Made by a program: the position numbers and the translations under genes
Assembly: GCA_947594675.1 (NCBI GenBank)
Contig: CANQEF010000005.1
Span: 1-22,265, forward strand
Length of the DNA stretch: 22,265 nucleotides
Direction: 5' to 3'
Source: an uncultured Bacilli bacterium
GTDB lineage: Bacteria; Bacillota_I; Bacilli_A; RF39; UBA660
Shown here: positions 4,864-22,101 of the stretch, piece after piece
How positions within the stretch are numbered: position 1 is the first letter of the stretch
Layout: every line of letters starts with the position of its first letter
The notes under the pieces: generated by a model
Seen by the model: the letters and a program-made list of their open reading frames with translations, nothing else
Databases searched by the model: none
What the model was told of the DNA's origin: nothing

Positions 4864-4874
4864 TGTTCTGCCTC

Positions 4875-7190: not shown

Positions 7191-7206
7191 TCATTTCGCC
7201 TCCACT

Positions 7207-8312: not shown

Positions 8313-8760
8313 CTTTTCCACCTTTTTTATTATCATTATAATTCCATTTATTGACTTGAATTCCAAATTTATCAGCTATTTTTAGAAACTCTTCTTGTTC
8401 TTCTTTATTTTTAAAGCCGACTAAAATATGTGGTGGTATAGGTAAATATTCTTCTGTTGATCTCCATATGTGTAAGCAATGTGGGTGCATATTAACATAG
8501 TCTTCTTCTTTAGGATGATATTCAACGCAAGCTTCATCCTTATTCCAAAAAATATCCTTCATTCTACACATTTGCTCCCATGTAGGAGTCCTACTAGGCA
8601 TACTTACTGATAAATGTTCCCAACCTAGTTGATAACTAAATATAAAATTTAAGTTTTTTCCACTAATTGAATCATAATAGTAGCCTCCCATTCCATCATT
8701 TAAGGTTTCAGCTTTTATGAATAAATTTCTAGTTTGTCTTATTTCTTCTAAATTTTTCAT
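8305..8760 (-). CDS. DUF7694-type phage protein
   Basis: A 151-residue protein whose core matches, from memory, a widespread phage family (DUF7694). It has FIFSYQLGWEHLSVSMPSR, then PTWEQMCRMKDIFW, then a VEYHPKEEDYVNMHPHCLHI block and an IPPHILVG end. The conserved YHP, HP and CLH residues could form a metal or active site, but no biochemical role is known to me. An AAGGAG site precedes the ATG. The family is typically found in early regions near replication or HNH genes, as here. Confidence 0.8.
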   Translation of the reverse strand: MKNLEEIRQTRNLFIKAETLNDGMGGYYYDSISGKNLNFIFSYQLGWEHLSVSMPSRTPTWEQMCRMKDIFWNKDEACVEYHPKEEDYVNMHPHCLHIWRSTEEYLPIPPHILVGFKNKEEQEEFLKIADKFGIQVNKWNYNDNKKGGKDE

Positions 8761-8768
8761 TTTTCTCC

Positions 8769-8984
8769 TTACCTATTTATCTCACAATCTTTTACCTGGT
8801 CTTGTATGCTTAAATTCTCTTTCAATAACTTGCAATATTCAAAACCATCTTTAATATCAAAATACCTACAGGGCTTTGCACAAACTGTTCTTAACTTTTT
8901 ATCATATTTAAATCTATGATGACAATATGGTGTCCTCTTTGGTATAAATATACTTGCTATCAATTTTTTAACATTCCAAAACAT
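8769..8984 (-). CDS. Small Cys/His-rich phage protein
   Basis: A 71-residue basic protein with YCHHRF, TVCAKPC, EYCKLL and DCEI, giving five Cys and two adjacent His residues that could bind one or two zinc ions. The N-terminus is mildly hydrophobic and basic (VKKLIASIFIPKR). AGAGG stands before its ATG, and it ends 8 bp before the DUF7694-type gene. It may be a small zinc finger; the family is not recognised. Confidence 0.7.
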   Translation of the reverse strand: MFWNVKKLIASIFIPKRTPYCHHRFKYDKKLRTVCAKPCRYFDIKDGFEYCKLLKENLSIQDQVKDCEINR

Positions 8985-8997
8985 TTTATTTCTACCT

Positions 8998-9360
8998 CTA
9001 ACTTTTTTTAATTACTTTTGAATACAAGTAACTACACCATTCTACAAAAGCCATAATAAAAGGTATTATATTTGTCATATCAGCCCAACCTGCAAAGCCA
9101 ATCCAACCATCTTCATTAAAAGTTATTGCTTCTCTATCATCAAAATAAGTGCCTTTTACTTTTAATTCTACAAACTTTATTTTTTTATTTTTATCTAATA
9201 CTATATTGTTAGGTTCTTTTATCATAATCATACAGTTAGAAAAATCACTTATATGTTTATTAAGTAATTTTATTAAAATATTTAATTCTTCTATTCCTAT
9301 ATCTTGATATGTTAAACCATATAGATTAAAACATTCTCTTGCTAAATCTCTTTTATTCAT
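8998..9360 (-). CDS. Phage protein of unknown function
   Basis: A protein of 120 residues from ATG 9360 (GGATGG six bases upstream), or 122 from ATG 9366. The N-terminal half is helical (LTYQDIGIEELNILIKLL), followed by strands KFVELKVKGTYFDDREAI and an FNEDGWIGFAGWAD turn, and a hydrophobic C-terminal helix (IIPFIMAFVEWCSYLYS). The helix is probably packed in the core rather than membrane-spanning, although an amphipathic membrane contact cannot be excluded. No family was recognised. It abuts the Cys-rich gene downstream. Confidence 0.7.
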   Translation of the reverse strand: MNKRDLARECFNLYGLTYQDIGIEELNILIKLLNKHISDFSNCMIMIKEPNNIVLDKNKKIKFVELKVKGTYFDDREAITFNEDGWIGFAGWADMTNIIPFIMAFVEWCSYLYSKVIKKS

Positions 9361-9387
9361 AATCATCCATCCATTTCTAAAATCGTT

Positions 9388-9657
9388 TTATTTTGTTTCA
9401 AATTTAACAAACTGATTATAAGCATTGATGCAATTTTTAATACCTCTGTCATCATTTGTTTTTATTTTTCCTTTAGGCACTCTTAAAAAAATAAATTTTC
9501 CTGTTCTTGCCCAAAAACTCATTATTGGGACTTCATTGTAATAAATATTAATATGACCTATTTCTTTCTTTTTAACTTCATGCCTTATATTATTTTTAGT
9601 TAATAATTGACTTGCATAATCGCACATTTCAATATTTTCTTTTTCTTTATCACTCAT
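9388..9657 (-). CDS. Small phage protein of unknown function
   Basis: An 89-residue alpha/beta protein with a GGAGGG site before its ATG. A helical acidic N-terminus leads into strands HINIYYNEVPIMSFWAR and KFIFLRVPKGKI, then a C-terminal helix. The size and strand pattern suggest a compact nucleic-acid- or protein-binding domain, but no known motif is seen. It sits between a small membrane protein gene and the 8998-9360 ORF in the same transcript. Confidence 0.7.
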   Translation of the reverse strand: MSDKEKENIEMCDYASQLLTKNNIRHEVKKKEIGHINIYYNEVPIMSFWARTGKFIFLRVPKGKIKTNDDRGIKNCINAYNQFVKFETK

Positions 9658-9671
9658 ATTAACCCTCCAAT

Positions 9672-9839
9672 TTATTTTTTCCAGTACCTCTCACATATTG
9701 TTGATTCATAAAAATCATTTGGCTGCAACTGATAACATTGATGATCTATTAACATATCTATTATTTGCCATACTAAACCTATAATTATTAAACTTAGTCC
9801 AGCTAAAATTAAAGTTATTACTAAAATATTCTTATTCAT
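9672..9839 (-). CDS. Small phage membrane protein (55 aa)
   Basis: Reverse-strand reading from the ATG at 9839 gives 55 residues: a hydrophobic N-terminal helix (ILVITLILAGLSLIIIGLVW, residues 5-24) and a short outside or periplasmic-like tail with two Cys (HQCYQL, STICERYW). Similar tiny proteins with a single helix and a CY..NxFxxxxxCE tail recur in Bacillota prophages, as far as I remember. The gene fills the otherwise empty space between its neighbours, and its stop is 12 bp before the GGAGGG of the next gene's start region. Its role is unknown. Confidence 0.75.
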   Translation of the reverse strand: MNKNILVITLILAGLSLIIIGLVWQIIDMLIDHQCYQLQPNDFYESTICERYWKK

Positions 9840-9855
9840 AAATAACACTTCTTTC

Positions 9856-10143
9856 CTAATTTTTATCTAATATTCCATGATGTTGATACCACTTTATATC
9901 ATTTCCTTTTTGAATATTCAAATCATATTTAATATCTTCTTTATTATAATTTTCACAACGTTTTAGCCACTTTTTAAAGCATTCATTGCAATATATGTCA
10001 CCTAAAACAAATATTAGTTTTGCTTTGTCGCTGATTTTATCGCAACCAGCACAAATTACCAAACCTCCCCAATTCATACAATCAGTTAAATCAACATCTA
10101 TATAACTAAAACCTTGTGGTGTATATTTAATTTTTGACATCAT
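9856..10143 (-). CDS. Small phage zinc-site protein
   Basis: A 95-residue protein. ICAGC and YCNEC lie 25 residues apart and form a probable treble-clef or ribbon zinc site in the middle of the protein, flanked by a beta-rich N-terminus (FSYIDVDLTDCMNWGG) and a charged C-terminus. AGGTGG lies four bases before the first ATG and seven before a second (10140), so either start is possible. Spacing of Cys pairs is like that of the 4005-4259 ORF, although the sequences are not obviously related. No family was identified. Confidence 0.7.
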   Translation of the reverse strand: MMSKIKYTPQGFSYIDVDLTDCMNWGGLVICAGCDKISDKAKLIFVLGDIYCNECFKKWLKRCENYNKEDIKYDLNIQKGNDIKWYQHHGILDKN

Positions 10144-10151
10144 TACACCAC

Positions 10152-10424
10152 CTAATAACTCATAATGTCATAAGTAACTACTTCTTGTTTTTTCTTATCA
10201 TTTGTTTCTATATTTTTTCTATAAGCTTTAGAATTTAATAAATAGTCTTCATTACATATGCCATTAATCCTATCTATTAATACATTTATTCTTTGTATAT
10301 CATATTGAGTTGTATCAAATTTTTCACTTCTAGTTACTTGTTCTATTAGTTTTCTTGACTTGGCATATTCTAAATATCTTAATAATTCTTGTCTTTCATA
10401 AGGATTTAACTTTATTGTTACCAT
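10152..10424 (-). CDS. Small helical phage protein
   Basis: A 90-residue basic protein, helical throughout (PYERQELLRYLEYAKSRKLI, then YDIQRINVLIDRINGI). It follows the NinB-like gene with 3 bp between, and a GGGGGA ribosome site is formed by that gene's last codons. No family was recognised. Its place directly after recombination genes suggests an accessory to DNA metabolism; this is inference from neighbours only. Confidence 0.65.
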   Translation of the reverse strand: MVTIKLNPYERQELLRYLEYAKSRKLIEQVTRSEKFDTTQYDIQRINVLIDRINGICNEDYLLNSKAYRKNIETNDKKKQEVVTYDIMSY

Positions 10425-10427
10425 ATT

Positions 10428-10886
10428 CTAATTCCCCCAATCCTTAATTAGTTGCTCTATTCGATAATCTTCTAAAGTCGGTATTTCTAACTCTTTACAA
10501 TCTTCTACTATTCCATTTAATAAAATTGACATTTCTCTTGTATCATAATTACTTGTACCCTTATATACTTTGTACCAATCTGCTAACTTACCATTTAATT
10601 TACTGGTACCAACATAGTCATAATATTTAAAATAACCATCTGGAATAGTTCCTTTTTCTACCGGAATAAGCAAGGTTTGACCATACTTTTTTAATTCTTG
10701 CAAATATATTTCCTCTTTGCTAGTATTTAATAATTCAGCTATATTACTTACTAACTTCCATAAATATGAATTGGCATTTAAACTTCTCTTATTTCTAAAA
10801 TCAGTAATTTCCACTTGATATTCTTTGTTAGGATCTAATTTAAAAAGCTGTCTTTTAATATCAATTTTCTTCCCGTGAAATATCAT
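10428..10886 (-). CDS. NinB-like phage recombination protein
   Basis: A 152-residue protein with KRSLNANSYLWKLVSNIAELL near residue 33, which is the hallmark of NinB-like proteins (RSL-x-AN-x-YxW). Later segments include YDTREMSILLNGIVEDCKEL and ELEIPTLEDYRIEQLIKDW, matching their C-terminal helix pair. Lambda NinB assists recombination pathways by binding single-stranded DNA. Here the gene follows SSB and a membrane protein in the early operon. A GAGG site precedes the ATG, and the gene overlaps the upstream ORF by 26 bp. The family call is good; the molecular role is by analogy. Confidence 0.75.
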   Translation of the reverse strand: MIFHGKKIDIKRQLFKLDPNKEYQVEITDFRNKRSLNANSYLWKLVSNIAELLNTSKEEIYLQELKKYGQTLLIPVEKGTIPDGYFKYYDYVGTSKLNGKLADWYKVYKGTSNYDTREMSILLNGIVEDCKELEIPTLEDYRIEQLIKDWGN

Positions 10887-11334
10887 TTTTGCCTCTGTTT
10901 ATACTTCTTTTATAGCACTCATCTATTTCTAATAATTCAATTTTGTCATTGTGAATTCTTATTGCGTTATAAATTAATAAACCTATGGCACAACCTAAAT
11001 TAATTCCACCAAAAACACCATCAAGATATTTATTTTTAAAAACCAATATATTAATATGTTCAAATATTAAAAGTAATAAAAGTGATGATAAAATTGTAGG
11101 AAACGCAAAGTTGCAATAATTCCACTTATGATGTTTTTTAGCAAAATCTAATAACTCATTTAAACTGTTTTGTTTGCTCGACATGATAGGTTTATTATCT
11201 TCACTAAAATATATTTCACTATCTATGTATTTCTTGAATAGAATCCATTTTATAGATCCATCATATTTTAATGATAAGCGATAATCACTTCCTAATAATT
11301 TTATAATCTTTTTTATTTTTTCTTTATCAGTCAT
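10861..11334 (-). CDS. Phage membrane protein with two predicted transmembrane helices
   Basis: The ATG at 11334 (start MTDKEKIKKII) is preferred over 11382, which would lie well inside ssb; it overlaps the ssb stop by 8 bp. The product is 157 residues. A charged N-terminal domain of about 75 residues is followed by two hydrophobic helices (FAFPTILSSLLLLLIFEHI and LDGVFGGINLGCAIGLLIYN, about residues 77-95 and 105-124) and a charged tail. Such a hairpin membrane protein between ssb and the NinB-like gene is not a usual part of a recombination module. It may act on the host envelope or in exclusion. No family was recognised. Confidence 0.65.
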   Translation of the reverse strand: MTDKEKIKKIIKLLGSDYRLSLKYDGSIKWILFKKYIDSEIYFSEDNKPIMSSKQNSLNELLDFAKKHHKWNYCNFAFPTILSSLLLLLIFEHINILVFKNKYLDGVFGGINLGCAIGLLIYNAIRIHNDKIELLEIDECYKRSINRGKNDISREEN

Positions 11335-11758
11335 AGTTGAATGGTAACTCTTCTTGACTAATTTCTTCAGCAAACTCTTCATATGGACTTTTTTCCTCCT
11401 TTACTTCTTCTTTTAATAATTCTTCCACGTGTGATGTATTTGATTTAATCTCATTTGACTTTGATTTTTCTAAGAAGGTAACCTTTTTTGCTATAAAATT
11501 GTAATCATAATGTTTTTTACCACTATTATCTTCCCAATTATTATTTCTAACAAATGCCTCAACACAAATTAAATCACCTTTAGAACAGTACTTTGCTGTG
11601 TTTTCAGCCGATACACCAAAAACCAACACATCTACAAAAGTACTTTCTTGATTTCTTTCATTTATAGCAAGAGGTACACGTGTTATTGATTTTCCTCGAG
11701 AAGTTTCTTTAACTTCAATGTCTCTTACTATTCTTCCAACAAAAATTATTTGTTGCAT
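11327..11758 (-). CDS. ssb: Single-stranded DNA-binding protein
   Basis: A 143-residue protein starting at ATG 11758 (MQQIIFVGRIVRD); a TTG five codons upstream is less likely. The OB fold shows the family pattern IFVGRIVRDIEVK, FVDVLVFGVSAENTAKYC, KGDLICVEAFVRNNNW and KKVTFLEK. A linker of about 35 charged residues ends in EELPFNYD: the acidic -LPF tip that recruits partner proteins is present, with three extra residues after it. It coats single-stranded DNA during phage replication and supports the ERF/exonuclease pair encoded upstream. Confidence 0.93.
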   Translation of the reverse strand: MQQIIFVGRIVRDIEVKETSRGKSITRVPLAINERNQESTFVDVLVFGVSAENTAKYCSKGDLICVEAFVRNNNWEDNSGKKHYDYNFIAKKVTFLEKSKSNEIKSNTSHVEELLKEEVKEEKSPYEEFAEEISQEELPFNYD

Positions 11759-12168
11759 ATTATCCACTTCCAATTTTCACCATATAAATAGCTTTTAAAA
11801 GGTTCTTCACAATACGAAACCAATTTAAAATCTTTGTTGCTATATGTAGTTGTGCAATATTCTTTTGTATAAAAGCTTTTGCCCCAATTTTTGTATAGAT
11901 CTAGCAATGTTTTATTTTCTAAAGGTTTTGCATACTCTCCTATAGTTTCATCTAAAAATTTATCTTCTACATCAAATACAGCGCATATTTCACCATTTAC
12001 TACACCACTCAAAAAATTCATTGCGTATTCTGGTACATATTCAGCCATTTTCATAAAACAAAAGCCTTTTGAAGTTGTTCTTGCCTTATGTTCTGTCCTG
12101 TTAATTAAAACTTCCCCAACTCTATACTTTTGAAATTCATTCTTTGACATGAATCTAAATACTTTCAT
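11746..12168 (-). CDS. Conserved phage protein of unknown function
   Basis: A 140-residue protein. The opening VFRFMSKNEFQKYRVGEVL, a TSKGFCFMKM strand, a GEICAVFDVED strand and the EYCTTTYSNKDFKLVSYC block recur together in Bacillota phages as a hypothetical protein near recombination genes. The fold looks alpha/beta. The opening arginine strand and compact size are loosely like small ADP-ribosyltransferase-type folds, but no catalytic triad can be pointed to. A GGAGGTGG site precedes the ATG within the upstream nuclease gene; the gene overlaps it by 14 bp and ssb by 13 bp. Confidence 0.75.
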   Translation of the reverse strand: MKVFRFMSKNEFQKYRVGEVLINRTEHKARTTSKGFCFMKMAEYVPEYAMNFLSGVVNGEICAVFDVEDKFLDETIGEYAKPLENKTLLDLYKNWGKSFYTKEYCTTTYSNKDFKLVSYCEEPFKSYLYGENWKWIICNK

Positions 12169-12739
12169 AATTGTTTGCCACCTCCAATAATAAGTTTTTT
12201 TCTATTCTTTCTACTTTTTCTAGTTTTCCTAAGTGACCTTTTGGCAGCCACAAGCAATAATGTTCTTCTACTTCTTCATCAGCTAATTCATAATAAGATG
12301 TTTGCCAAGCTACATAGTCTCTATCTAGCTCTGCTGTAGTTTTTACATCTATAATTGCTTTTTTACCATTAACTAAAGCCTTAATATCAAGTGTTCCACC
12401 ATATAAGTTTTTATAGAAAACTATCTTCTCTACTTCTAAAACTTCTATGTTAAATTCTTGTTTTATTCTTAAGTATTCTTTTAAACTTTCTTCTTGATAT
12501 ATGTTAGGACTAAAATATCTTTTTATATAAACTAAAGGTCTCCTAGGCTTTTTTCTTTCAATTACCTCAATATATTTGTGCAACTCAGTTCCATAGACAC
12601 TTTTTTCATCAAGTATTTTTTGTGGTATTCCACCGTATTTATCAGGGAATACTTGATTTAATATTTGCGTTACACTTGGAACTAATACACCATTAACAAG
12701 ATATTGATGTGTCTCTTCTATAAATTCTACTGTTTCCAT
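12155..12739 (-). CDS. PD-(D/E)XK exonuclease of the phage recombination module
   Basis: A 194-residue protein with the RecB/Cas4-type nuclease arrangement. VYGTELHKYIE (48-58) is the N-terminal helix, LEVEK follows at 101-105, GGTLD (Asp118) and IIDVKTT (Asp131, Lys133) form the metal site, and DYVAWQTSYYE (141-151) supplies the QxxxY motif. Such proteins resect DNA ends 5' to 3' and hand single strands to the annealing protein. The ERF gene lies 310 bp upstream, with one small ORF between. Start and stop overlap by one base with the upstream gene. All key residues are present. Confidence 0.85.
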   Translation of the reverse strand: METVEFIEETHQYLVNGVLVPSVTQILNQVFPDKYGGIPQKILDEKSVYGTELHKYIEVIERKKPRRPLVYIKRYFSPNIYQEESLKEYLRIKQEFNIEVLEVEKIVFYKNLYGGTLDIKALVNGKKAIIDVKTTAELDRDYVAWQTSYYELADEEVEEHYCLWLPKGHLGKLEKVERIEKNLLLEVANNYESI

Positions 12740-13056
12740 TAATTAAACTTTACGTATGCCTTTTTAGGTGAAACAGTAGTGTATTTTTCATATATTGTAG
12801 GCTCTTCTTCTTTTAGTTTCTTACTATCAATTTTTGATTGTGTAGTTGCTGCATAATAAGTAACTTTGAATGTACCATCTGGACTAGTATAATTTTTAAT
12901 GTTGTTTTCTTCCATTTTTTCTAGAAAAGCCTGTTTTAATTTTTCATTCATCATATTTAATTCAACTGTTGCTTTTTGTATTTTCTTTATTAGTTTTATT
13001 CCTTCTTGAGTTGCTACTATATTGTTGTCTTCTACTTTGATTATTTCATTATTCAT
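12739..13056 (-). CDS. Small phage protein between ERF and exonuclease genes
   Basis: A 105-residue protein. An N-terminal coiled coil (GIKLIKKIQKATVELNMM, then EKLKQAFLEKMEENNIK) is followed by TSPDGTFKVTYYAATTQSKI and a basic end. This layout (helices, then a two-strand xFKVTYY region and a D-x-K-K-L helix) resembles small proteins often found beside phage single-strand annealing genes and sometimes called Gam-like or gp157-like, but I cannot fix the family. It overlaps the ERF gene by 8 bp. A helper role in recombination is inferred from position. Confidence 0.7.
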   Translation of the reverse strand: MNNEIIKVEDNNIVATQEGIKLIKKIQKATVELNMMNEKLKQAFLEKMEENNIKNYTSPDGTFKVTYYAATTQSKIDSKKLKEEEPTIYEKYTTVSPKKAYVKFN

Positions 13057-13705
13057 TTCCTTTTTTTACCTCATATTCATGTATTTTTTTTATTAAAGCA
13101 CTTGCTTTTTCTATTGATAATTCCTCTAAAGAATTAATTTTATGTTTTGTTAATAATTTTTCTAAGTTTTCATCTTTGTAGTAATGATTTAATATTTCTA
13201 GTTGACTTTTAGTTGCTGTTTTTGTTATTTTTTTGTAGCCATTTTCTGGACTAGGATCTTTATCAGGATCATCACCAGTTGCTATTTTATAAGCTTTCAT
13301 TAATGCATATTTATCAGCATATGTCATTGCTTTACCTGGCGCTTTATCTCCGGTGTCCATACCATCTCCATAAGATTTAACATCGATAAATTCGCTAGGA
13401 TTATCTATATTTATGAAACGATATGTAATTTCTAGTCTTAAAAATAATGTGTTAGTAGTCGTTATTTTATCATTATATTCTGTTTCTTTTGTTAGAACAT
13501 CTGCATCTACTATTTTTCTATCTACTGGATAAGAATAAATTCTATATTTTTTTTCTAAAGGTTTTACTGCCTCTAAAATTGTTTTTTCATCAACTGCTTT
13601 ATAGCTTTTATCTTTATTTATTTTTACTTCTAGTTTCTTCTCTAGTGTTTCTAATTCGCTAGTAATTAGCATTAATTTTTCATATAAACTTTTATCTTTT
13701 TCCAT
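13049..13705 (-). CDS. erf: ERF-family single-strand annealing protein
   Basis: A 218-residue protein of normal family length. The ERF core is clear: KTILEAVKPLEKKYRIYSYP near residue 41, LFLRLEITYRFIN, then the signature GDGMDTGDKAPGKAMTYAD with DKYALMKAYKIATGDDPD (residues 113-148). The C-terminal 60 residues are a linker plus a small helical domain (KSQLEILNHYYKDENLEKLL) seen in many members. ERF proteins form rings that anneal complementary single strands, used for genome circularisation and recombination. It pairs here with the exonuclease at 12155-12739 and SSB. A GAGGTAG ribosome site stands before the ATG. Confidence 0.94.
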   Translation of the reverse strand: MEKDKSLYEKLMLITSELETLEKKLEVKINKDKSYKAVDEKTILEAVKPLEKKYRIYSYPVDRKIVDADVLTKETEYNDKITTTNTLFLRLEITYRFINIDNPSEFIDVKSYGDGMDTGDKAPGKAMTYADKYALMKAYKIATGDDPDKDPSPENGYKKITKTATKSQLEILNHYYKDENLEKLLTKHKINSLEELSIEKASALIKKIHEYEVKKGNE

Positions 13706-14060
13706 CTTCTTCTACCTCTTCAATATTTTTAATTGTTTGCTCTATCCTTGTTCTCATATAATTAAAAAGTTCTAAAGTGTCTTGCTTATTTTTTAAAATT
13801 GGTAAAAAGAAAAATATCAATTTAAAAAATGCTTCAAAATTTGCTTTTTCAAATGTTATTTTGTCTTTATCCTTTACTTTTTTTAGTATGTTTTTCCTAG
13901 AAGTTTCATCCATCAAATTAATTTCTTCAATTTTATCTTTTATAGTTTCTTTATCATTTACATAACCATAAATAAACTTTGCTCCTACTTTGCTAGGTAT
14001 TCTTTTTCTTGTTATTTCTATCCTTGTTTCTAATTTTTCAATATCAATAAAGTTTTTCAA
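13692..14060 (-). CDS. Phage protein of unknown function upstream of erf
   Basis: A 122-residue protein read from a TTG at 14060 with a strong AGGAGG eight bases upstream; no ATG gives a sensible alternative. It is basic, largely helical and contains EAFFKLIFFFLPILKNKQDT, a hydrophobic segment too short and broken to be a sure membrane span. The C-terminus ends in NIEEVEEDGKR and overlaps erf by 14 bp. No family was recognised. It is coupled to the replication genes upstream and recombination genes downstream. Confidence 0.65.
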   Translation of the reverse strand: MKNFIDIEKLETRIEITRKRIPSKVGAKFIYGYVNDKETIKDKIEEINLMDETSRKNILKKVKDKDKITFEKANFEAFFKLIFFFLPILKNKQDTLELFNYMRTRIEQTIKNIEEVEEDGKR

Positions 14061-14074
14061 ATTTTTCCTCCTAA

Positions 14075-14509
14075 TTATTTATATTTTTCATAAAGTAAAT
14101 TAAATTTTTCTTCGCTTAGATTATAAAGCTCTTCATATGATAATTTTTCTTTGTATTTTTTCTCAAGTACATTTTGTAAGTATATTATCGCCAAACATCT
14201 ATCATAATGCTTTTCATACTCACTTAATCTCATAGTCTTTTGACATAAGTTGCAGTCTATTAAATGATTTTCTGCAGGCTTTAATTTTTCATTTATTGTT
14301 TTTAAATATCTTGTAATAAAACTTGGCTTTGGTGGGTTATTTTTAAAGTCACCATTTAGATGTTCTTCAAGTTTCATATAAACATCATAAGATTCATAAT
14401 CTTTTAGGGCTCTGTACCATTCTTCAATAAAATACTTTTCTTTGATAGGTAACATTGGATATTCTACTTTTAATTTTTCTAGAAATTCTGCAGTTTCTCT
14501 TTTTGTCAT
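14075..14509 (-). CDS. G39P-like helicase loader with a C-terminal zinc finger
   Basis: A 144-residue protein. Residues 1-75 match the G39P/helicase-loader pattern: a short helix, EYPMLPI, FIEEWYRALKDYESYDVYMKL, then NPPKPSFITRYLK. Residues 80-110 add a C-x2-C-x11-H-x3-C motif (Cys86, Cys89, His101, Cys105), probably a small zinc finger not present in the SPP1 prototype as I know it. The C-terminal 35 residues are helical and acidic. The ATG overlaps the stop of the DnaD-type gene by 4 bp, so initiator and loader are coupled. Its expected role is to bring host DnaB-type helicase to the phage origin. Confidence 0.75.
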   Translation of the reverse strand: MTKRETAEFLEKLKVEYPMLPIKEKYFIEEWYRALKDYESYDVYMKLEEHLNGDFKNNPPKPSFITRYLKTINEKLKPAENHLIDCNLCQKTMRLSEYEKHYDRCLAIIYLQNVLEKKYKEKLSYEELYNLSEEKFNLLYEKYK

Positions 14510-15255
14510 CTATCTTCTTCCTCTTCTAAAAATTCTTTTTTTACTTCCTCCCAAGTATTTTTTGATTTTAATTCTTTTTGTGGTCTACTATTTAAGTAGC
14601 TTTCAAATTTACTTCCAAATAAAGTAGATGGTCTTAAGTAATCTTCCATACTGGTATTCAACCATTTGCTGCTTTGATTATCTATCACTTTTTTAAAATC
14701 ATCCAAAGTATAACCATCACTAAGTCGAGCATTAATGTGTCTTACAGTATCTTTTGAATTGGTTTTGAAATTTTTATTTACTTTTTGATTTAGGTAATCA
14801 ATAACTTGCTCGACAATATATTTACTATTTTCTTTCATTCTTATATTCTTACATTCTTTAATAGTGAGCACTCTTTGTTTTTTTATTGTCGAAGTATCGC
14901 CCATTGGTCGTTCAATTTGTTGTTCATAATTTTGATACTTATTCCAATTTACTATTGTAATTAAACGACCTTTGTTACTTTTTTGTTGTTCAATTTGTTG
15001 GTCGTTTTCAAACCACTTTAAAATTCGTTCTGCTTTAGTTTCAGAAATGCAACAAGCGGTTGCTATTATTTTTCTTCCGGTAATAAATTGTCCTGGTAGC
15101 ACTTCAATTTTTTCATTTTTGAAGATTGCAAATTGAGATGTGTGATTGGCATTATATAGCAAATGATGCCATACTCTAAAATAATCATTGTCTTTACATA
15201 CAACTGGGTTATTTTCTACTTTTCGATACATTTTTATCCAACCATCTCTATCCAT
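14506..15255 (-). CDS. DnaD-type phage replication initiator
   Basis: A 249-residue protein. The N-terminal winged helix (residues 1-110) reads WIKMYRKVENNPVVCKDND, then WHHLLYNANH and GQFITGRKIIA, as in phage replisome organisers. After a polar linker comes the conserved phage C-terminal domain (about 148-222): VIDYLNQKVNKNFKTNSK, INARLSDGYTLDDFKKVID, then YLRPSTLFGSKFESYLN. That domain (TIGR02220-like) is associated with origin binding or DnaD-type remodelling. AGGAG lies seven bases before the ATG. A helicase loader follows directly. The replication origin may lie within this gene, as in related phages, but no clear iteron set was seen. Confidence 0.9.
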   Translation of the reverse strand: MDRDGWIKMYRKVENNPVVCKDNDYFRVWHHLLYNANHTSQFAIFKNEKIEVLPGQFITGRKIIATACCISETKAERILKWFENDQQIEQQKSNKGRLITIVNWNKYQNYEQQIERPMGDTSTIKKQRVLTIKECKNIRMKENSKYIVEQVIDYLNQKVNKNFKTNSKDTVRHINARLSDGYTLDDFKKVIDNQSSKWLNTSMEDYLRPSTLFGSKFESYLNSRPQKELKSKNTWEEVKKEFLEEEEDR

Positions 15256-15347
15256 TCGAGTACTCCTAGCTTTTTGATTTTTTCTTCATTTTGTGCTAAA
15301 ATGTAACTGAGAAAATTTTTGCGGGTTTTCTCTTTTTTTGTGTCCAT
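15234..15347 (-). CDS. Tiny basic phage protein (37 aa)
   Basis: ATG at 15347 opens a 37-residue frame (MDTKKEKTRKNFLSYILAQN, ending LEWIEMVG) with a GGAGG ribosome site nine bases upstream, supplied by the 3' end of the preceding small gene. It overlaps the DnaD-type gene start by 22 bp in another frame, and that gene's AGGAG lies within it, suggesting coupling. No family was recognised. Confidence 0.5.
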   Translation of the reverse strand: MDTKKEKTRKNFLSYILAQNEEKIKKLGVLEWIEMVG

Positions 15348-15354
15348 ATAATTT

Positions 15355-15507
15355 TTACCTCCATATGTTTTTTGGTATTTTCCAATTACTATCTTCCTTA
15401 AATTTATATCTTAAATTTAAGTTGTATTGACTGGCATAAAGAAATAGTAAATAATCTATAACTTCTTCTTCTCTACCTTTAAATGCTTCACCATTTTTAA
15501 ATTGCAT
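15355..15507 (-). CDS. Small phage protein (50 aa) at the start of the replication operon
   Basis: ATG at 15507 with a very good GAGAGGTGAT ribosome site opens a 50-residue frame: MQFKNGEAFKGREEEVIDYL, an LFLYASQYNLNLRY helix and a basic NWKIPKNIWR end. Its stop overlaps the ribosome site of the 37-residue ORF. It lies 47 bp after the Cro-like gene and so is the second gene of the early transcript, or the first from the internal promoter candidate. No family was recognised; translation is likely from the ribosome site alone. Confidence 0.65.
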   Translation of the reverse strand: MQFKNGEAFKGREEEVIDYLLFLYASQYNLNLRYKFKEDSNWKIPKNIWR

Positions 15508-15554
15508 TTAATCACCTCTCTTAATTTTATGTAATTAGTTAGTCGCTTTTATAT

Positions 15555-15791
15555 TTATTCCTCAATATAAGACTTAAAGTCTTGTGTTAAGGCATCAAAA
15601 AAGTCTGCAATTTCAGTTGTAGATAAATCCAAATTATTTAGAATTGAAAATATTGTATCTAATTTACAAGCAAGCAAATTATTTTCATAGCTGACATATA
15701 TTTGTCTACTAATATTATTTTTTTCGCTAAATTCTTCTTGACTTAAATTTCTTTTTGCCCTAAAACTTTTTAGCATATTTGTTGATTTCAT
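15555..15791 (-). CDS. Cro-like XRE-family regulator
   Basis: A 78-residue protein, nearly all helix-turn-helix: LKSFRAKRNLSQEEFSEKNN, then SRQIYVSYENN and TIFSILNNLDLSTTEI, the five-helix XRE fold. It is the first gene after the early promoter, transcribed away from the repressor gene, with a consensus AGGAGGTG ribosome site at 15796-15803. By position it should act as Cro, shutting the repressor promoter and committing to lytic growth. Its last codons (encoding LTQDFKSYIEE) also hold a third near-copy of the switch operator, so this gene may be both source and target of regulation. Confidence 0.85.
   Translation of the reverse strand: MKSTNMLKSFRAKRNLSQEEFSEKNNISRQIYVSYENNLLACKLDTIFSILNNLDLSTTEIADFFDALTQDFKSYIEE
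15562..15590 (-). promoter_or_regulatory. Third operator copy in a promoter-like frame inside the cro-like gene
   Basis: AAGACTT and AAGTCTT flank one base at 15569-15583, extended to ATAAGACTT on the left. On the minus strand the dyad fills a 17-bp gap between TTAACA (15585-15590) and TATTGA (15562-15567). This is the same geometry as the main early promoter, but the -10 match is poor. It lies over the last codons of the Cro-like gene, about 250 bp downstream of the main operator. It could drive or repress the rest of the early operon, or help looping. Confidence 0.55.
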
Positions 15792-15813
15792 GTTTCACCT
15801 CCTGTTTAAATCA

Positions 15814-15842
15814 ATTATATAAGACTTTAAGTCTTATGTCAA
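15814..15842 (-). promoter_or_regulatory. Early (lytic) promoter with operator filling the spacer
   Basis: On the minus strand TTGACA (15837-15842) and TATAAT (15814-15819) are separated by exactly 17 bp: a perfect sigma-A consensus. The spacer is occupied by the palindrome ATAAGACTT-T-AAGTCTTAT (15819-15837), touching both hexamers, so a bound dimer would block RNA polymerase completely. Transcription should start near 15807, giving a leader of only about 15 bases before the Cro-like ATG. Confidence 0.88.
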
Positions 15843-15850
15843 CTTTTTTT

Positions 15851-15890
15851 GACTTTTAGTCTTGTTTTTTAAACTTTAATATTTTATAAT
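15851..15890 (+). promoter_or_regulatory. Repressor promoter with adjacent partial operator
   Basis: On the plus strand TTGTTT (15862-15867) and TATAAT (15885-15890) are 17 bp apart, upstream of the XRE repressor gene. The operator-like GACT-TTT-AGTC (15851-15861), whose right half extends to the AGTCTT half-site of the main operator, lies immediately upstream and touches the -35. Binding here would repress or, if weaker, stimulate repressor synthesis, as in lambda-type switches. The -35 is weak, which fits a promoter needing help. Confidence 0.7.
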
Positions 15891-15908
15891 GTTTATACGG
15901 AGGGAAAT

Positions 15909-16139
15909 ATGGAAAATTTTTTTGCTTCAAATTTAAAATATTTAAGAAAAAAGAATGGTTGGACACAAGATTTTATTGGTAAAAAAATTAAAAAAGATTA
16001 TTCGACTATTGGAAAATATGAGCTTGGTCAAAGAACACCTTATATGAATGAAGTTTTAACATTAGCAAGTTTATTTAATGTTACTTTAGAAGAATTTATT
16101 ACTAAAGATTTGAGGAAAGGAGAGAATAATGAAAAATAA
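15909..16139 (+). CDS. Short XRE-family repressor (CI-like)
   Basis: A 76-residue protein: LKYLRKKNGWTQDFIGKKIK, then YSTIGKYELGQRTPYMNEVL and FNVTLEEFI, a complete XRE helix-turn-helix with almost nothing else. GGAGGG precedes the ATG. Divergent orientation to the Cro-like gene and the operators between them make it the likely prophage repressor. Unlike CI of lambda it has no peptidase or dimerisation domain, so SOS self-cleavage is not possible, and induction must use another route such as an antirepressor or the downstream membrane proteins. It overlaps the next gene by 11 bp. Confidence 0.85.
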   Translation: MENFFASNLKYLRKKNGWTQDFIGKKIKKDYSTIGKYELGQRTPYMNEVLTLASLFNVTLEEFITKDLRKGENNEK

Positions 16140-16458
16140 ACTTATTAAATGGTTTTTTAATTTTGGAAATGTTATAGCAATATTTTATATGTTTATACCT
16201 TTATATATGATATATAATTATAAACAATATCGTTTTGGTGATTTGTCCTTTACTATCGAATTGTTTAGTTCAATAGCATATAGTATATTTTTTTATAAAA
16301 AAGTAATGTGTAAAAAAGAATTTTTAGAAGAAAAGAAAAAAACTTTTGAAGATTTATACAAAAGAGAACATCCCATATTTGAAAATCAAAGTTATGAAAG
16401 CAAATATAATAGTTTAATGAATTTTACTAATAGTTTATTCGATGATGAAATAATATAG
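16129..16458 (+). CDS. Membrane protein coupled to the repressor
   Basis: A 109-residue protein whose ribosome site (AGGAAAGGAG) lies inside the repressor gene; the frames overlap by 11 bp, so the two are made together from the lysogenic transcript. Two hydrophobic helices are seen (FFNFGNVIAIFYMFIPLYMI, residues 9-28, and FTIELFSSIAYSIFFY, about 41-56), followed by a charged tail of about 50 residues with KKEFLEEKKKTFEDLYK. No family was recognised. Expression in the lysogen suggests superinfection exclusion or signal sensing that affects the repressor; both are inference. Confidence 0.75.
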   Translation: MKNKLIKWFFNFGNVIAIFYMFIPLYMIYNYKQYRFGDLSFTIELFSSIAYSIFFYKKVMCKKEFLEEKKKTFEDLYKREHPIFENQSYESKYNSLMNFTNSLFDDEII

Positions 16459-16511
16459 TGAAAAAAATTTTGTTACTACAATTTTGAAAGAATTTGAAAA
16501 GGCTGGTAAAT

Positions 16512-16973
16512 ATGAAAATAAGTAATGGCAGTACTGGAGAATTTGTTATTGCAATTTTTTTGGTAATTGGTGGTCTTTCTAGCATAGGCACTCTATTTAG
16601 TTATGTGAGTATCTTATGTGGCATATTAATAATAGGACATTGTATTTATTTGTGGTCACAAATTAGAAAGAAAAATACAGAAAATAAACTTTCTACATCA
16701 ATGCAAAACACAAATATTAATCAGCCTATTGAAAACAATACGCAACAAGACAATCAAAAAAAACAACAAGCTTATCAAATGCTAGGTGAAATGCAACAGC
16801 GAGCCAGAAAAGATTTAGAAACTTGTGTTTCTAGGAAACAATTAAAAGATATGCTAGAAAAAAATATAATCACTAAAGAGCAATATGACAAATATATAGA
16901 TAATATCGAATCACTAGAAATGTTAGCATACTATGACTATAAAAAAATTTTTAATAATGATCAAAAGCAATAA
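16512..16973 (+). CDS. Lysogeny-module membrane protein with SHOCT-like C-terminus
   Basis: A 153-residue protein from ATG 16512 (an AAGG-containing site precedes it; a TTG at 16494 is less likely). Two hydrophobic helices near the N-terminus (FVIAIFLVIGGLSSIGTLF and VSILCGILIIGHCIYLW) are followed by a Gln/Asn-rich linker of about 40 residues, and then a charged region with KQLKDMLEKNIITKEQYDKY. The latter resembles a SHOCT motif, a short helical pair common at the ends of membrane and phage proteins and thought to mediate oligomerisation. It follows the repressor-linked membrane gene by 53 bp on the same strand. Its function is unknown; an exclusion or sensor role is possible. Confidence 0.75.
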   Translation: MKISNGSTGEFVIAIFLVIGGLSSIGTLFSYVSILCGILIIGHCIYLWSQIRKKNTENKLSTSMQNTNINQPIENNTQQDNQKKQQAYQMLGEMQQRARKDLETCVSRKQLKDMLEKNIITKEQYDKYIDNIESLEMLAYYDYKKIFNNDQKQ

Positions 16974-16999
16974 AAAAAGACCTAGTGCAGCAACACTAG
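16972..16999 (-). terminator. Rho-independent terminator for leftward transcription
   Basis: On the minus strand, CTAGTG-TTGCTG-CACTAG forms a perfect 6-bp stem with a 6-base loop, followed by GTC and seven T residues. It faces transcripts coming from the recombinase side. It would stop leftward (antisense) read-through from the broken host gene before it reaches the lysogeny genes. It lacks a U-tract on the plus strand. Confidence 0.6.
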
Positions 17000-17038
17000 A
17001 TCAAAATGAAAAACTACTTTAGCGACTAACTAAAAACT

Positions 17039-17112
17039 ATAAAATTATAAAGGTAGCAACCAATACAATGATATAGGAGTTTTTCTATATCATTGTAGCA
17101 TAAAATTATAAA
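17039..17112. repeat. Direct repeat pair flanking a long hairpin upstream of the recombinase gene
   Basis: The 13-bp sequence ATAAAATTATAAA occurs at 17039-17051 and again at 17100-17112. Between them lies a 13-bp-stem hairpin (17064-17097). The repeats are AT-only and could arise by chance, but the symmetrical bracket is notable. They are a candidate control element or a small insertion footprint in the recombinase leader. Confidence 0.5.
17064..17097 (+). promoter_or_regulatory. 13-bp perfect hairpin in the recombinase leader
   Basis: TACAATGATATAG and CTATATCATTGTA pair perfectly around the loop GAGTTTTT, ending about 20 bp before the AAAGGAAG ribosome site. Neither strand has a U-tract after the stem, so it is not a classical terminator. 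It may be an operator dyad or an mRNA stem that shapes recombinase translation or stability. Confidence 0.55.
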
Positions 17113-17128
17113 AAAAGGAAGTGTTGCA

Positions 17129-18496
17129 ATGACAAATATTGTAAACAATGAAGTTATATCTGTTGCTTTATATATAAGAGTTTCAACAGAAGAGCAAGTA
17201 AAACATGGCTACTCTTTGGAAAGCCAAGAAAATAGATTAAAAGAATACTGTAAAAGTAAGAATTATAAAATTATTGATATTTATAAAGATGAAGGAAAAT
17301 CAGCAAGGAGTAAATTAAAACAACGTACAGAATTATTAAGATTAATAGAAGATGCCAAATTAAAAAAATTTGATAGAATTGTTTTTTGGAGACTAGACAG
17401 ATGGTTTAGAAATATAGCTGACTACTATAAAACGCAAGAGATATTAGAAACTAATAATATTAATTGGGAATGCAGTGATGAAGAATATAATACAACTACT
17501 TCTAATGGTAGACTGCATTTAAATATTAAACTATCTATCGCTCAAAATGAAAGCGATCAAACCAGTGATAGAATCAAATTTAACTTTGAAAATATGATAA
17601 AAAATAAAAAAGCTGTATATGGTTCTCACTCTTGCCCTTTAGGCTACATGGTAGTTGGTGAAAAAGGCAATAAACATATAGTAAAAAATGAAAAAGAAAG
17701 TGAAATCGTTGAATTTTTATTTAAAACATATCCATTAACTACATCGTATAGAAAAACTTCTATTTTAATAAATGAAAAGTTTAACTATTATGTTGATCCA
17801 CTTGTTATAAAAAGAATCTTAAAAAATCCTTTATATTATGGAAAATTTAGAGAAGTTGATAATTATTGTGAGCCATATATAACTAAAAACATTTTTGATG
17901 AAGTACAAACCTTACTACCAAAAAATAATAGACAGAACAAAAAACATGAGTACTTATTTACAGGCTTAATGATTTGTGATGAATGTAACAAAAAAATGGC
18001 TGCTAATATGAAGAACAGTAAAAAAGTATATAGATGTGCTTCCTATTGCAATAATAGAAAATGTAATAACTCTAAGTATATAGCAGAAAATAAAATTGAA
18101 GAATACTTGTTAGAAAATTTAGAAAACATAAAAAATACTTTTATACAAGAAAATGAAAAGAACACCTTAAAAATAGATTATTTATCAAAAATCAAATCAT
18201 TAAATGCAAAAAAAGACAGACTTAATGATTTATATATTGACGGATATATTTCGAAAGAAAAATATCTTAATGATATTAATAAAATCAGTGAAGAAATAAA
18301 TGAATTATTAAAGTTACAAAAAAAGATAAAAACACCTAAGAAAATTACAAAATTAGATGAAAATATTTTAAATATATATAATTCATTAAATAATGAGTTA
18401 AAAAGAAATTTTTGGCTTAAATATATTGATCATATTAATTTTAAACCTGTTAATAATAAAAATTTGAATGAAAGGATAAATATTTTTTGGAAATAA
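17129..18496 (+). CDS. int: Large serine recombinase (phage integrase)
   Basis: A 455-residue protein. The N-terminal resolvase domain has ALYIRVSTEEQ with catalytic Ser19, a Q-G-Y-S-L-E-S-Q type GYSLESQENRL segment, the DRIVFWRLDRWFR strand-helix (about 80-92) and the long E helix. A recombinase domain follows (CPLGYMVV, then RILKNPLYYGKF), then a zinc ribbon (CDECNKKMAAN and Cys pairs, about 275-312). A coiled coil (SLNAKKDRLNDLYIDGYIS, then ISEEINELLKLQKKI) controls directionality. The length is normal for the family. Such enzymes recombine attP with a chromosomal attB. Its gene ends 10 bp from a broken host gene, as expected for the prophage end. An AAAGGAAG ribosome site precedes the ATG. 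Confidence 0.97.
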   Translation: MTNIVNNEVISVALYIRVSTEEQVKHGYSLESQENRLKEYCKSKNYKIIDIYKDEGKSARSKLKQRTELLRLIEDAKLKKFDRIVFWRLDRWFRNIADYYKTQEILETNNINWECSDEEYNTTTSNGRLHLNIKLSIAQNESDQTSDRIKFNFENMIKNKKAVYGSHSCPLGYMVVGEKGNKHIVKNEKESEIVEFLFKTYPLTTSYRKTSILINEKFNYYVDPLVIKRILKNPLYYGKFREVDNYCEPYITKNIFDEVQTLLPKNNRQNKKHEYLFTGLMICDECNKKMAANMKNSKKVYRCASYCNNRKCNNSKYIAENKIEEYLLENLENIKNTFIQENEKNTLKIDYLSKIKSLNAKKDRLNDLYIDGYISKEKYLNDINKISEEINELLKLQKKIKTPKKITKLDENILNIYNSLNNELKRNFWLKYIDHINFKPVNNKNLNERINIFWK

Positions 18497-18499
18497 AGT

Positions 18500-18530
18500 G
18501 TATTAACTAAACAATTCCTGGGGCAATGGC
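18500..18530. other. Probable prophage attachment junction
   Basis: The recombinase stop (18494-18496) is separated by 10 bp from the stop of the truncated host dehydrogenase (18507-18509). In that gene the family sequence is normal up to the APG motif (near 18515-18523), and then two unrelated codons and a TAG follow. The crossover should lie in or next to the CCAGGA stretch that encodes the Pro-Gly. The other junction is outside the window, so the exact core cannot be fixed. Confidence 0.65.
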
Positions 18531-19276: not shown

Positions 19277-19311
19277 AAAAATTTTTGCGCTTAAGCAACT
19301 AAAAAATTTTT
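19277..19311 (-). terminator. Possible weak terminator after the phosphodiesterase gene
   Basis: On the minus strand AAAAATTTTT near the stop codon can pair with AAAAATTTTT 25 bases later, with TTGC/GCAA pairing inside the loop, ending in a T-run. The stem is all A-T apart from the inner part, so it is weak, and it overlaps the stop of the upstream gene. The same 54-bp gap must also hold any dehydrogenase promoter, and no good one was seen. Confidence 0.3.
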
Positions 19312-21119
19312 CTAACTAATTTAACATATTCATTTATTAAATTGCTTGTTTTACTAGAATAAATTGTATCTTTAGCTAAAGTAATATCATCTGTAATTAT
19401 ATTATCAACATTTAAATCAATCATGTTATTAATGCTTTCTTTAGTATTAACAGTCCAAGCATATAATTGTTTTCCTTCGTTATGGACGGATTTAACTAGT
19501 TTTCTAGTTACACTCATCGCTTCAATACTAAAATTATCGGCATCCTTTAAGGATGTTATATCACCATAAGCAAGACTCATAACATAAACAGTTTTTACCT
19601 TTTTATCATATTTTTTTACTTTCTTTAAAACATCATAAACTTGTGAAGTAATAACGCAACTATCTTCAAAATTTTCTTCCTTAATTATATCCACAACTTC
19701 TTTTTCTAGGTCTTTTTCATGACCTGTAGGTTTAATTTCAATATTAAGTCTGATATTATTTTCTTTAGCAAACTCGACTACATCTTTTAGTAAAGGGATT
19801 TTTTCACCTTTATATTTCTTGGAAAAAAAACTTCCGGCATCTAATTTTTCTACTTCAAAAGAAGATAATTCCCATGTATTTTTATCTACTTTTGTTGTTC
19901 TTTTAAAATTTGTATCGTGAATAACAATAACTTCTTTGTCTTTTGTTTCTTGAACATCTAATTCAATCCAATCTGCTCCTAATTTCTTAGCCCCTATAAA
20001 AGCACTCATTGTATTTTCTGGATAAAATACTGATGCTCCTCTATGAGCAGTAACTTCAAGTGTCCTTGTATATTCTATATTTAGATTATATTCACCTTTA
20101 TATAATCCATATGTAAAGAAAAATCCTAATATTAAAGCAAGGCAACTTAACATCCAAGTAATTCTTTTTAACCACTTATTTGTGTTTTTGTTTTTATTTT
20201 CATCAATAACTATATGCTTTATCTTTTCTTTTTGCTCATCTTTATGTAAATAGTACAATACACTTATAGTTGCATAACTAATTGGCGTTGTCAAAAGTAC
20301 AAAGACAATAAAAGTAAAGGCAATAAATAGCCAAATAATTGTCGTTGTCAAGCTTTTTATAATTAAAGCTTTTTCAAATACTTTACTCATAAGCATTACT
20401 AGCAGAATTCCTATAATTAGTAGTAGAAAGTATAAAACAAATATTACTAATTGTATAGTAATTAGAGTAATTAAATCTTTTAAATGTGTTTTTTTGCTTA
20501 ACTTGATACTATCTTTTCTAGATTCTAAAAAGCTTTTATCTTCAACTACATGGTAATGAAATATATATAAAAAGCGAAGTAATAATATTAAAAGTAAAAT
20601 ATATAAAGAAATAATCAAAGTCAAAAGAAAGCTATTTTTTATAATATACTCCATTATAAACTCTGGTATTTTTATTGTCGCAATTAAACTAGAGGAAACA
20701 CCAATATTTAAAAAGGGAATTAAAAACAATACTAAAAAAACAACTGTAATATTTTTTATCTTAAAAAAGCCTTGACATTTTTTTAAAGCAATACTACAAG
20801 CATCGCTTATTTTTATTTTTTTCTTTTGATAAGATGCATCAAGTATGACGATAATTGCGGCTATATCAAACAGTGTATAAACAGTCATAAGAAGAAATAA
20901 AATTATTAGTAATACTATAACTATGGGATTTAATAGAAAAGATAAAAAATTTTCTAATGTCAAATAATTATAGCCTGTTAGTTTTGTAATTAAATTAAAT
21001 AAATTAAAAAAAAGTGGCATGAATATTAGTAAGGTTAAAATTTTATATAGAGCCTCAAACCCTACTAGTGTTTTTAAATTATAATTTATTAAGCTAATTA
21101 CTTTTTTTACTTTTTGCAT
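19299..21119 (-). CDS. Membrane-anchored glycerophosphodiester phosphodiesterase
   Basis: A 606-residue protein from ATG 21119 (an in-frame GTG at 21128 lies too close to the AGGA site). Residues up to about 340 hold roughly eight hydrophobic helices of the GPDPase membrane domain type (for example IVLLIILFLLMTVYTLFDIA and FVLYFLLLIIGILLVMLM). The rest is a GDPD catalytic barrel: AHRGASVFYPENT near residue 360, ELDVQETKDKEVIVIHD with the paired metal Glu/Asp and His, LNIEIKP, and a final AWTVNTKE with NIITDD. It hydrolyses glycerophosphodiesters to sn-glycerol 3-phosphate and an alcohol, probably outside the membrane, in lipid or teichoic acid turnover. It has its own promoter region and is a chromosomal, not a phage, gene. 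Confidence 0.93.
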   Translation of the reverse strand: MQKVKKVISLINYNLKTLVGFEALYKILTLLIFMPLFFNLFNLITKLTGYNYLTLENFLSFLLNPIVIVLLIILFLLMTVYTLFDIAAIIVILDASYQKKKIKISDACSIALKKCQGFFKIKNITVVFLVLFLIPFLNIGVSSSLIATIKIPEFIMEYIIKNSFLLTLIISLYILLLILLLRFLYIFHYHVVEDKSFLESRKDSIKLSKKTHLKDLITLITIQLVIFVLYFLLLIIGILLVMLMSKVFEKALIIKSLTTTIIWLFIAFTFIVFVLLTTPISYATISVLYYLHKDEQKEKIKHIVIDENKNKNTNKWLKRITWMLSCLALILGFFFTYGLYKGEYNLNIEYTRTLEVTAHRGASVFYPENTMSAFIGAKKLGADWIELDVQETKDKEVIVIHDTNFKRTTKVDKNTWELSSFEVEKLDAGSFFSKKYKGEKIPLLKDVVEFAKENNIRLNIEIKPTGHEKDLEKEVVDIIKEENFEDSCVITSQVYDVLKKVKKYDKKVKTVYVMSLAYGDITSLKDADNFSIEAMSVTRKLVKSVHNEGKQLYAWTVNTKESINNMIDLNVDNIITDDITLAKDTIYSSKTSNLINEYVKLVRKIF

Positions 21120-21158
21120 CTTTTCCACATCCTAAATATTCATATTTCTTTGTTAATA

Positions 21159-21294: not shown

Positions 21295-22101
21295 TTATTT
21301 TTCTTTAACCTTTTTTAAATCATATATTTTATCAACTGTATCACATACATTTTGTGAATGAGTTACAATAATAACACACTTATTTTCTTCATGAGCCAAT
21401 TTTTTAAATATTTCTAAAATTTCAGTTTCTGTTTGCTTATCAAGATTTCCAGTTGGTTCATCTGCAATTATCATTTTGGGATTATAAGATAAACTTCTCG
21501 CAATGGCAACTCTTTGTTGCTCTCCACCTGATAATCTCAATACTTTACGGTCAGCATAACTGGCTTTTAAGCCTACTTTTTCCATAAGTTCAATAGCTTT
21601 TTCTTTTTTATTTTTTATTTTTAATCCGTTCGCATCCATGGAAAGAATTATATTTTCACTAGCTGTCATAAAAGGCAATAAATTATAGCTTTGAAAGACA
21701 ATGCCTATATCACTATTACGATACTTATCTAAATTCATATCTTTTAGGCTTTTACCATCAAATATAATTTCACCTTCAGTACACTTTTCTAGTCCACTTA
21801 TAAGTGACAAAAGCGTTGTTTTACCTGTTCCACTTCGACCTCTTATGGCATATAATTTTCCACTTTCAAAATCAAAGCTAACATCTTTTAAGGCATAATC
21901 ATTTTCTTCAGCATCACTATATCTATAACTAGCATTTTTAATACTTAAAATAATATCTTTTGGAGAAGGAGTTTTTGCTTTAACTTCTTGTTTTTCTTTT
22001 AACTCTTTATCTTCTTTATTTTTAATCTTTTTCTCTTTTTTAGAAATACTCTTTCCAAGGTTATCTTTTGAAACGTAGTTATTCTTTTTATTATTTGCCA
22101 T
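21295..22101 (-). CDS. MacB/LolD-type ABC transporter ATP-binding protein
   Basis: A 268-residue protein. Walker A (GRSGTGKTT, about 89-97), Q-loop (FQSYNLLPFMTASENI), signature (LSGGEQQRVAIARSL), Walker B (MIIADEPTGNLD) and H-loop (VTHS) are all intact, so the ATPase should be active. The order and the NLD extension fit the MacB/LolD/BceA group that powers FtsX-like permeases. Ahead of the domain is an unusual Lys/Glu-rich extension of about 50 residues (KSISKKEKKIKNKEDKELK). The upstream gene's end (22104 onwards) is the permease, two bases away. The substrate cannot be deduced: lipoprotein, peptide or antibiotic export, or cell-wall signalling, are all possible. Confidence 0.93.
   Translation of the reverse strand: MANNKKNNYVSKDNLGKSISKKEKKIKNKEDKELKEKQEVKAKTPSPKDIILSIKNASYRYSDAEENDYALKDVSFDFESGKLYAIRGRSGTGKTTLLSLISGLEKCTEGEIIFDGKSLKDMNLDKYRNSDIGIVFQSYNLLPFMTASENIILSMDANGLKIKNKKEKAIELMEKVGLKASYADRKVLRLSGGEQQRVAIARSLSYNPKMIIADEPTGNLDKQTETEILEIFKKLAHEENKCVIIVTHSQNVCDTVDKIYDLKKVKEK

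Follow-up and report, generated by a model that had tools for sequence, protein, structure and literature searches.

A prophage very probably inserted by its serine integrase into a short-chain dehydrogenase gene of an uncultured Bacilli bacterium

A truncated dehydrogenase gene beside an integrase gene

We analyzed 22,265 nucleotides of DNA from an uncultured Bacilli bacterium (contig CANQEF010000005.1; we refer to this whole stretch as the window). Its main features are listed in Table 1, together with those of a related prophage in another genome, G003.

Table 1. Features of the window and, in the last three lines, of the comEC prophage on contig C3 of genome G003.
Feature	Position	Strand	Evidence and remarks
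Right-hand part of prophage	1..18519		PHROGs, Pfam; left end beyond the window
Portal	1-1131		PHROGs
Terminase large	1325-2806		PHROGs, Pfam terminase
Terminase small	2803-3375		PHROGs
Large serine integrase, 455 aa, intact	17129..18496	+	Pfam, phrog_95
Phage-side half of attachment site, GTGTATTAAC...CC, TAA-N10-CC spacing	18498..18519	+	Junction spacing; attP palindromes of relatives
Putative crossover, in Pro242 of the SDR	18519..18521		Palindrome centre in 7 relatives, carried over
Truncated SDR gene, 245 aa	18507-19244	-	ORF; Pfam adh_short and adh_short_C2; comparison with 306-aa homologues
Host glycerophosphodiester phosphodiesterase with membrane domain	19299..21128	-	Pfam GPDPase_memb, GDPD; adjoins the SDR in L001 too
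Host ABC transporter ATPase	21295..22101	-	Pfam ABC_tran
G003, comEC N-terminal part	10683-12236		
G003, integrase	12253-13686		
G003, comEC C-terminal part	50245-50787		

The left-hand part of the window carries phage genes. Besides the portal and the terminase, PHROGs matches left of the junction include NinB/Orf, SSB, an exonuclease, an Erf-like annealing protein, replication initiation, HNH, and the integrase, and Pfam identified two HTH regulators in the prophage part. (The nearest phage records for the terminase are Bacillus phages, at about 49% identity, which says nothing about integration.) The window ends inside the prophage, and the left junction lies outside it. The contig that carries this SDR gene has a listed length of 22,265 bases, equal to that of the window, so the window is probably the complete contig.

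The integrase matches phrog_95 (E = 9e-102), and its three Pfam domains (PF00239, Resolvase; PF07508, Recombinase; and PF13408, zinc beta ribbon) all score above the curated cut-offs. Ser19, in the motif YIRVST, is invariant in 15 aligned rows, and we take it to be the catalytic serine. The best NCBIfam match is to the XisF-type fdxN element recombinase (NF041201; E = 2e-44), but the integrase is not a member of that family (its score is 152, versus a cut-off of 375). The integrases of phiCD27 (Clostridioides) and phiFL (Enterococcus) are of the same kind and match over 83-96% of the length (tblastn), but they are only about 32-37% identical to the window's integrase. All 462 of the matching phage records are below 60% identity (tblastn).

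Ahead of the integrase gene is a leader (16974-17128) that can be aligned in seven relatives (the window included). By eye, it seems to contain a hairpin with co-varying arms (CTAGTG/CACTAG and the like). RNAalifold gave only a weak other helix for this leader, whose two Rfam matches both scored under the gathering thresholds.

The short-chain dehydrogenase (SDR) gene and the integrase gene lie tail to tail, with a gap of 10 bp. The SDR frame ends in RVNAIAPGIV and a stop (junction region 18507-18530). The ORFs thus agree with the original prediction, in which the dehydrogenase ended two codons after its APG motif, 10 bp from a serine recombinase gene. The hallmarks of SDRs are the cofactor motif TGxxxGxG, NNAG, and YxxxK; NNAG and the tyrosine and lysine of YxxxK have roles in SDR function. 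All of these motifs are present in the 245-residue ORF (TGGDSGLG, NNAG, and YVTSK with Tyr212 and Lys216), as had been expected for the catalytic tyrosine and lysine, and the frame has no other damage.

What is missing is the C-terminus. The window's SDR fills only positions 5-176 of the 236 in adh_short_C2, versus 5-234 for the 306-residue homologue in a sister metagenome-assembled genome (L001). By comparison with 306-residue homologues, about 61-63 residues were lost (306 minus 243-245), roughly the final fifth of the gene, so the earlier figure of about 45 was too low. The best named model is PRK06701 (SDR family oxidoreductase), with a match below the curated cut-off. Among solved structures, the short chain dehydrogenase 3i3o, from Bacillus anthracis, is the closest in sequence.

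The dehydrogenase gene in related genomes

We then scanned GTDB genome contigs for homologues of the SDR gene, kept the best 80 of 234 relatives, and read each from its start codon. Most of these 80 loci (75) are intact, with lengths of 306 codons (69 loci), 307 (5 loci), or 308 (1 locus), which means that the empty site is known. Another three run off their contigs beyond residue 243. No phage-free relative with the same 245-residue gene and stop was found: none of the best 80 of 234 loci ends like the window's form. (Two loci, L025 at 9396-10127 and L059 at 168-899, have in-frame stops at codons 61 and 32, respectively. If read through the stop, both have the native C-terminus and end at codon 306; they are possibly pseudogenes or sequence errors.)

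The closest empty relative is L001, which is among the intact loci. Its SDR gene is uninterrupted, encodes 306 residues, and has the same GDPD neighbour as in the window. The empty site is thus taken from a sister species (90% identical DNA), which is another strain than the window's host. The window and L001 are 89.8% identical over 2714 bp (18509-21222), and the blastn alignment stops at 18509. Read in the sense of the gene, bases 601 to 740 (up to codon 247) form seven 20-bp blocks with 14-19 identical bases each, while each of the next five full blocks has only 2-6 of 20. So, when compared to a phage-free relative with an intact 306-residue gene, the window loses homology sharply at the junction. 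Because the homologues have 306-308 residues, none of them ends like the window's form, and similarity stops at the junction, we consider the 245-residue truncation to be the derived state.

Protein searches gave a similar picture. Among 120 of 4115 matches listed, the window's SDR is the sole one with 245 residues. Other short proteins among those 120 have 242 and 270 residues, and the 242-residue one, which stops at NAIAP, is probably cut by a contig end. The C-terminal piece (residues 244-305) is present in 103 of 243 family genomes. In 101 of these it lies in an open frame of at least 298 codons, which implies, from frame length, that it is contiguous with the N-terminal part. The frame of G246 is interrupted by the end of its contig, and the match in G206 is incomplete and lies at the end of a contig; in both, the upstream part of the SDR is contiguous with the C-terminal piece. 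A second insertion into the SDR gene was not seen at any of the 80 loci or in any of the 103 genomes that carry the C-terminal piece.

Among eight genomes of L001's genus, five have the SDR (at E = 1e-60), and each match spans residues 1-305. No integrase of the window's kind was found in these eight genomes at E = 1e-70. Two pattern-based scans of limited sensitivity found no viral contigs that carry the SDR.

Could the 245-residue protein be a functional variant that is maintained by selection? The stub does retain Tyr212, Lys216, TGGDSGLG, and NNAG, in a frame that is otherwise undamaged. But the lost part is highly conserved: across 17 homologues, 48 of its 63 columns are invariant, versus 144 of the 243 columns before it, and it aligns end to end with 3i3o. 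In SDRs generally, the C-terminal part holds the substrate loop, the last strand, and oligomer contacts. Together with the lack of the 245-residue form among the best 80 relatives, this makes a selected variant highly improbable. Because the lost part is conserved, aligns to 3i3o, and would hold the substrate loop and the last strand, the stub is probably inactive, judging from the sequence. (An AlphaFold2 model of the full SDR, built from 17 rows, had a mean pLDDT of 53, which is too poor to use.)

Targets of related integrases

To see where related integrases lie, we searched 193 and 386 genomes of the family (the 386 with the integrase P0121), 385 of the order, 395 of the class, and 8 of the genus, which are overlapping draws, as well as 10 single genomes or records and viral contigs. 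The relatives that we used have best-segment identities of 45-62%. Among the 193 family genomes, 35 have integrase matches at E = 1e-40, and junctions were read in the two closest (L092 and L093). The contig ends at the integrase region in L128 and L181, and L146, L152, and L153 have no sequence past the integrase. The junction targets leave out L145, L158, and L159-L180.

The window's integrase is most similar to P0121-P0128, at 56-59% identity across the full alignment; these are stand-alone sequences with no flanking DNA. When viral contigs were scanned, P0121 picked up 2 loci and P0125 picked up 9, all relatives with best-segment identities of 34-58%, and P0121 had 6 matches in the 386 family genomes (50-53% identity at E = 1e-110).

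Four of the related integrases lie next to comEC, two as judged by profiles and two by short tails. First, L083 (in G003) and L093 (in G199) run into comEC at an LTHGD-type motif. Pfam's Competence family matches both of them, and NCBIfam's ComEC/Rec2 matches L083 below the cut-off. Their comEC frames have 517 and 495 codons, respectively, versus 675-704 in six other genomes searched. Second, in L197 (from G813), 35 residues match the comEC of G006 just ahead of the same motif (E = 5e-6), and in L156, a viral contig, only seven residues (LIITHGG) precede the contig end. ComEC is the DNA-uptake channel, and the insertions in comEC fall at its metallo-beta-lactamase motif.

In three other cases, the target is probably an ABC ATPase. 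L129 (G316, about 1334-1460) runs into an ABC ATPase that ends in GENGA (Walker A), with PDB matches to ABC proteins at E = 6.5e-6. The contig of L092 (G189, 1-15) ends in the letters NGA, so this target is only probable. In L127 (G267, about 1100-1445), an ABC ATPase (EAFSALD...LVTHD) adjoins the integrase, with PDB matches to ABC proteins at E = 2e-8. (Pfam had no match to two short ABC fragments, which were placed by the PDB sequence search.) The insertion in L127 lies just before the D-loop of the ATPase.

In G003, both ends of the prophage are on one contig (C3; L126, L130, and L131; 10683-50787). The 38-kb prophage splits comEC, the C-terminal fragment of comEC lies at the far end, and CATGG is found at both junctions. 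This is the arrangement that had been predicted for the SDR gene, here seen in a relative. The integrase of G003 is 49% identical to the window's integrase in protein sequence.

In a maximum-likelihood tree of 33 integrases, the comEC cases L083, L093, and L156 fall in one clade of 8 (support 100/100), and the window falls in another clade of 9 with P0121-P0128 (support 100/99). L129, L092, and L127 are elsewhere in the tree, and L197 is absent from it. From these placements, it appears that a single group of integrases includes members with different conserved genes as their targets.

The attachment site and the proposed insertion

We examined candidate attP sites in seven relatives on viral contigs that appear to be uninserted: L147, L148, L150, L151, L154, L155, and L157. 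(L149 is nearly identical to L148 and was left out; L150 and L081 are one and the same contig.) The palindrome scores at these sites were reached by 0, 0, 1, 0, 0, 2, and 39 of 500 base shuffles, respectively, so an inverted repeat directly behind the integrase's stop codon is clear in six of the seven and weak in L157. The central dinucleotide of the palindrome lies 14-15 bases past the TAA (AAA in L151) in five of the seven and 13-14 bases past it, or one base off the rule, in L147 and L148.

The junctions have a similar spacing. TAA or TAT, ten bases, and CC are found at 7 of 9 junctions (the window, L083, L093, L156, L129, L092, and L197). L127 has CA in place of CC, and L128 has too little sequence for a reading. 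Behind the integrase's stop, the window reads TAA-CTAAACAATT-CC-T-GG. The window thus holds one att half-site, with a spacing that fits the attP of the relatives.

Because the phage side of the window has the relatives' spacing, we infer by analogy that the crossover was in the proline codon of APG (18519-18521). The +14/+15 rule would place it at the GG at 18520-18521, and the +13/+14 rule would place it at 18519-18520. If the crossover was in this codon, then the SDR is probably host-derived up to about residue 242, and the last codons (Gly-Ile-Val-stop) are probably phage-derived.

One pair of contigs looks like the integrated and free forms of one element. The integrases of L156 and L157 are identical, and the sequences downstream agree up to CCTCCATG; L156 ends in its seven comEC-like residues, and L157 runs into an attP-like repeat. 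A check by eye for an excess of contig ends at the att site in metagenome-assembled genomes showed nothing convincing.

Another explanation is that the window is an assembly chimera, in which phage and host contigs that do not belong together were fused at the SDR gene. The window does resemble a metagenome contig, and its left end is absent. But the junction lies directly behind the integrase's stop, as in the relatives, with the same TAA-N10-CC spacing, and a related integrase lies at a real junction in G003, where both halves of the gene are present. A chimera therefore seems extremely unlikely.

Instead, a temperate phage's serine integrase very probably inserted the phage into the SDR gene and split it, with the remainder at the other end of the prophage. 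The sister species' empty site, the sharp loss of homology, the phage genes, and the spacing of the attP half-site all bear out the prediction that a prophage integrated into the coding part of the dehydrogenase. In this scenario, the host is an uncultured Bacilli bacterium of gut type, and its temperate phage would have entered the SDR gene in the codons of the conserved motif Asn-Ala-Ile-Ala-Pro-Gly. The phage's attP, an inverted repeat immediately after the integrase's stop, would recombine with the host site in the SDR gene. The first 242 or so codons would be left beside the integrase, and the remaining 61-63 or so codons would lie at the other end of the prophage, beyond the window. The enzyme's activity would presumably be lost in the lysogen, and excision would be expected to repair the gene. 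Restoration of the SDR on excision is plausible; a regulatory role for the insertion is unsupported.

Some phages do act as switches. In Listeria, comK is interrupted by a phage, as a reversible switch. Similarly, hlb (in Staphylococcus) is described as split by a phage-like element whose excision restores the gene, and the elements in gerE and yabG as interruptions that are reversed by excision. The SDR gene resembles those genes in being split by something phage-like, but nothing here points to programmed excision. Could regulated excision restore the SDR under some condition? The intact integrase and the position of the insertion within a coding sequence would fit, and reversible switches are described at other genes. 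But the insertion in the SDR was seen just once, regulated excision is without support here, and serine integrases often disrupt coding genes in PMC10083194 without being cast as switches in the accessible part of that article. We consider this kind of active lysogeny to be very unlikely. We give about as little credence to a broader proposal, that a clade with a fixed attP moved among codons for motifs (the metallo-beta-lactamase motif of comEC, the Walker A motif or D-loop of ABC ATPases, and APG in the SDR) and that the SDR site is a reversible off-switch for a host stress enzyme.

The mechanism at the SDR junction is ordinary, and its interest comes mainly from the relatives: the window's prophage is a fresh case of a known type of insertion, and its relatives strike other genes, including comEC. 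As far as the available text of PMC10083194 goes, serine integrases are found inside conserved coding sequences, with families that share one target gene, and DNA competence genes are strongly enriched among the targets. Those elements lie inside coding genes, like the window's, whose target is the SDR at its APG motif; neither "dehydrogenase" nor "comEC" occurs in the main text of that article. PMC4774983 reports prophages that lie in comYC and cites a case of an island in the comEC of pneumococcus, and PMC12637031 reports that prophages of pneumococcus occupy sites where they inhibit transformation. The disruption of competence genes in PMC4774983 is matched by the related integrases in comEC, while the window's prophage has a target outside the competence genes. 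In literature searches on attB, short-chain dehydrogenases, and prophage integrases, we did not find the SDR described as an attB. For comEC with prophages and serine integrases, titles and the starts of abstracts mentioned nothing about the present case.

With this junction, a specific attachment site can be assigned to a phage whose host belongs to an uncultured lineage of the gut. The window and the relatives form a small natural series in which serine integrases change targets while the attP layout stays the same. With the comEC cases, the known pattern in which mobile elements disable DNA uptake extends to one more lineage.

Finally, the window and the comEC prophage of G003 share 1.1 kb of DNA (6105-7205 in the window) at 91.8% identity over 1104 bp, a segment that contains a gene for an HNH endonuclease. 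The other DNA that the two phages have in common is a 455-bp match in the integrase (72.5% identity) and matches of 54 and 65 bp. Because this segment is so similar while the phages share little other DNA, it probably reflects a recent exchange of a module.
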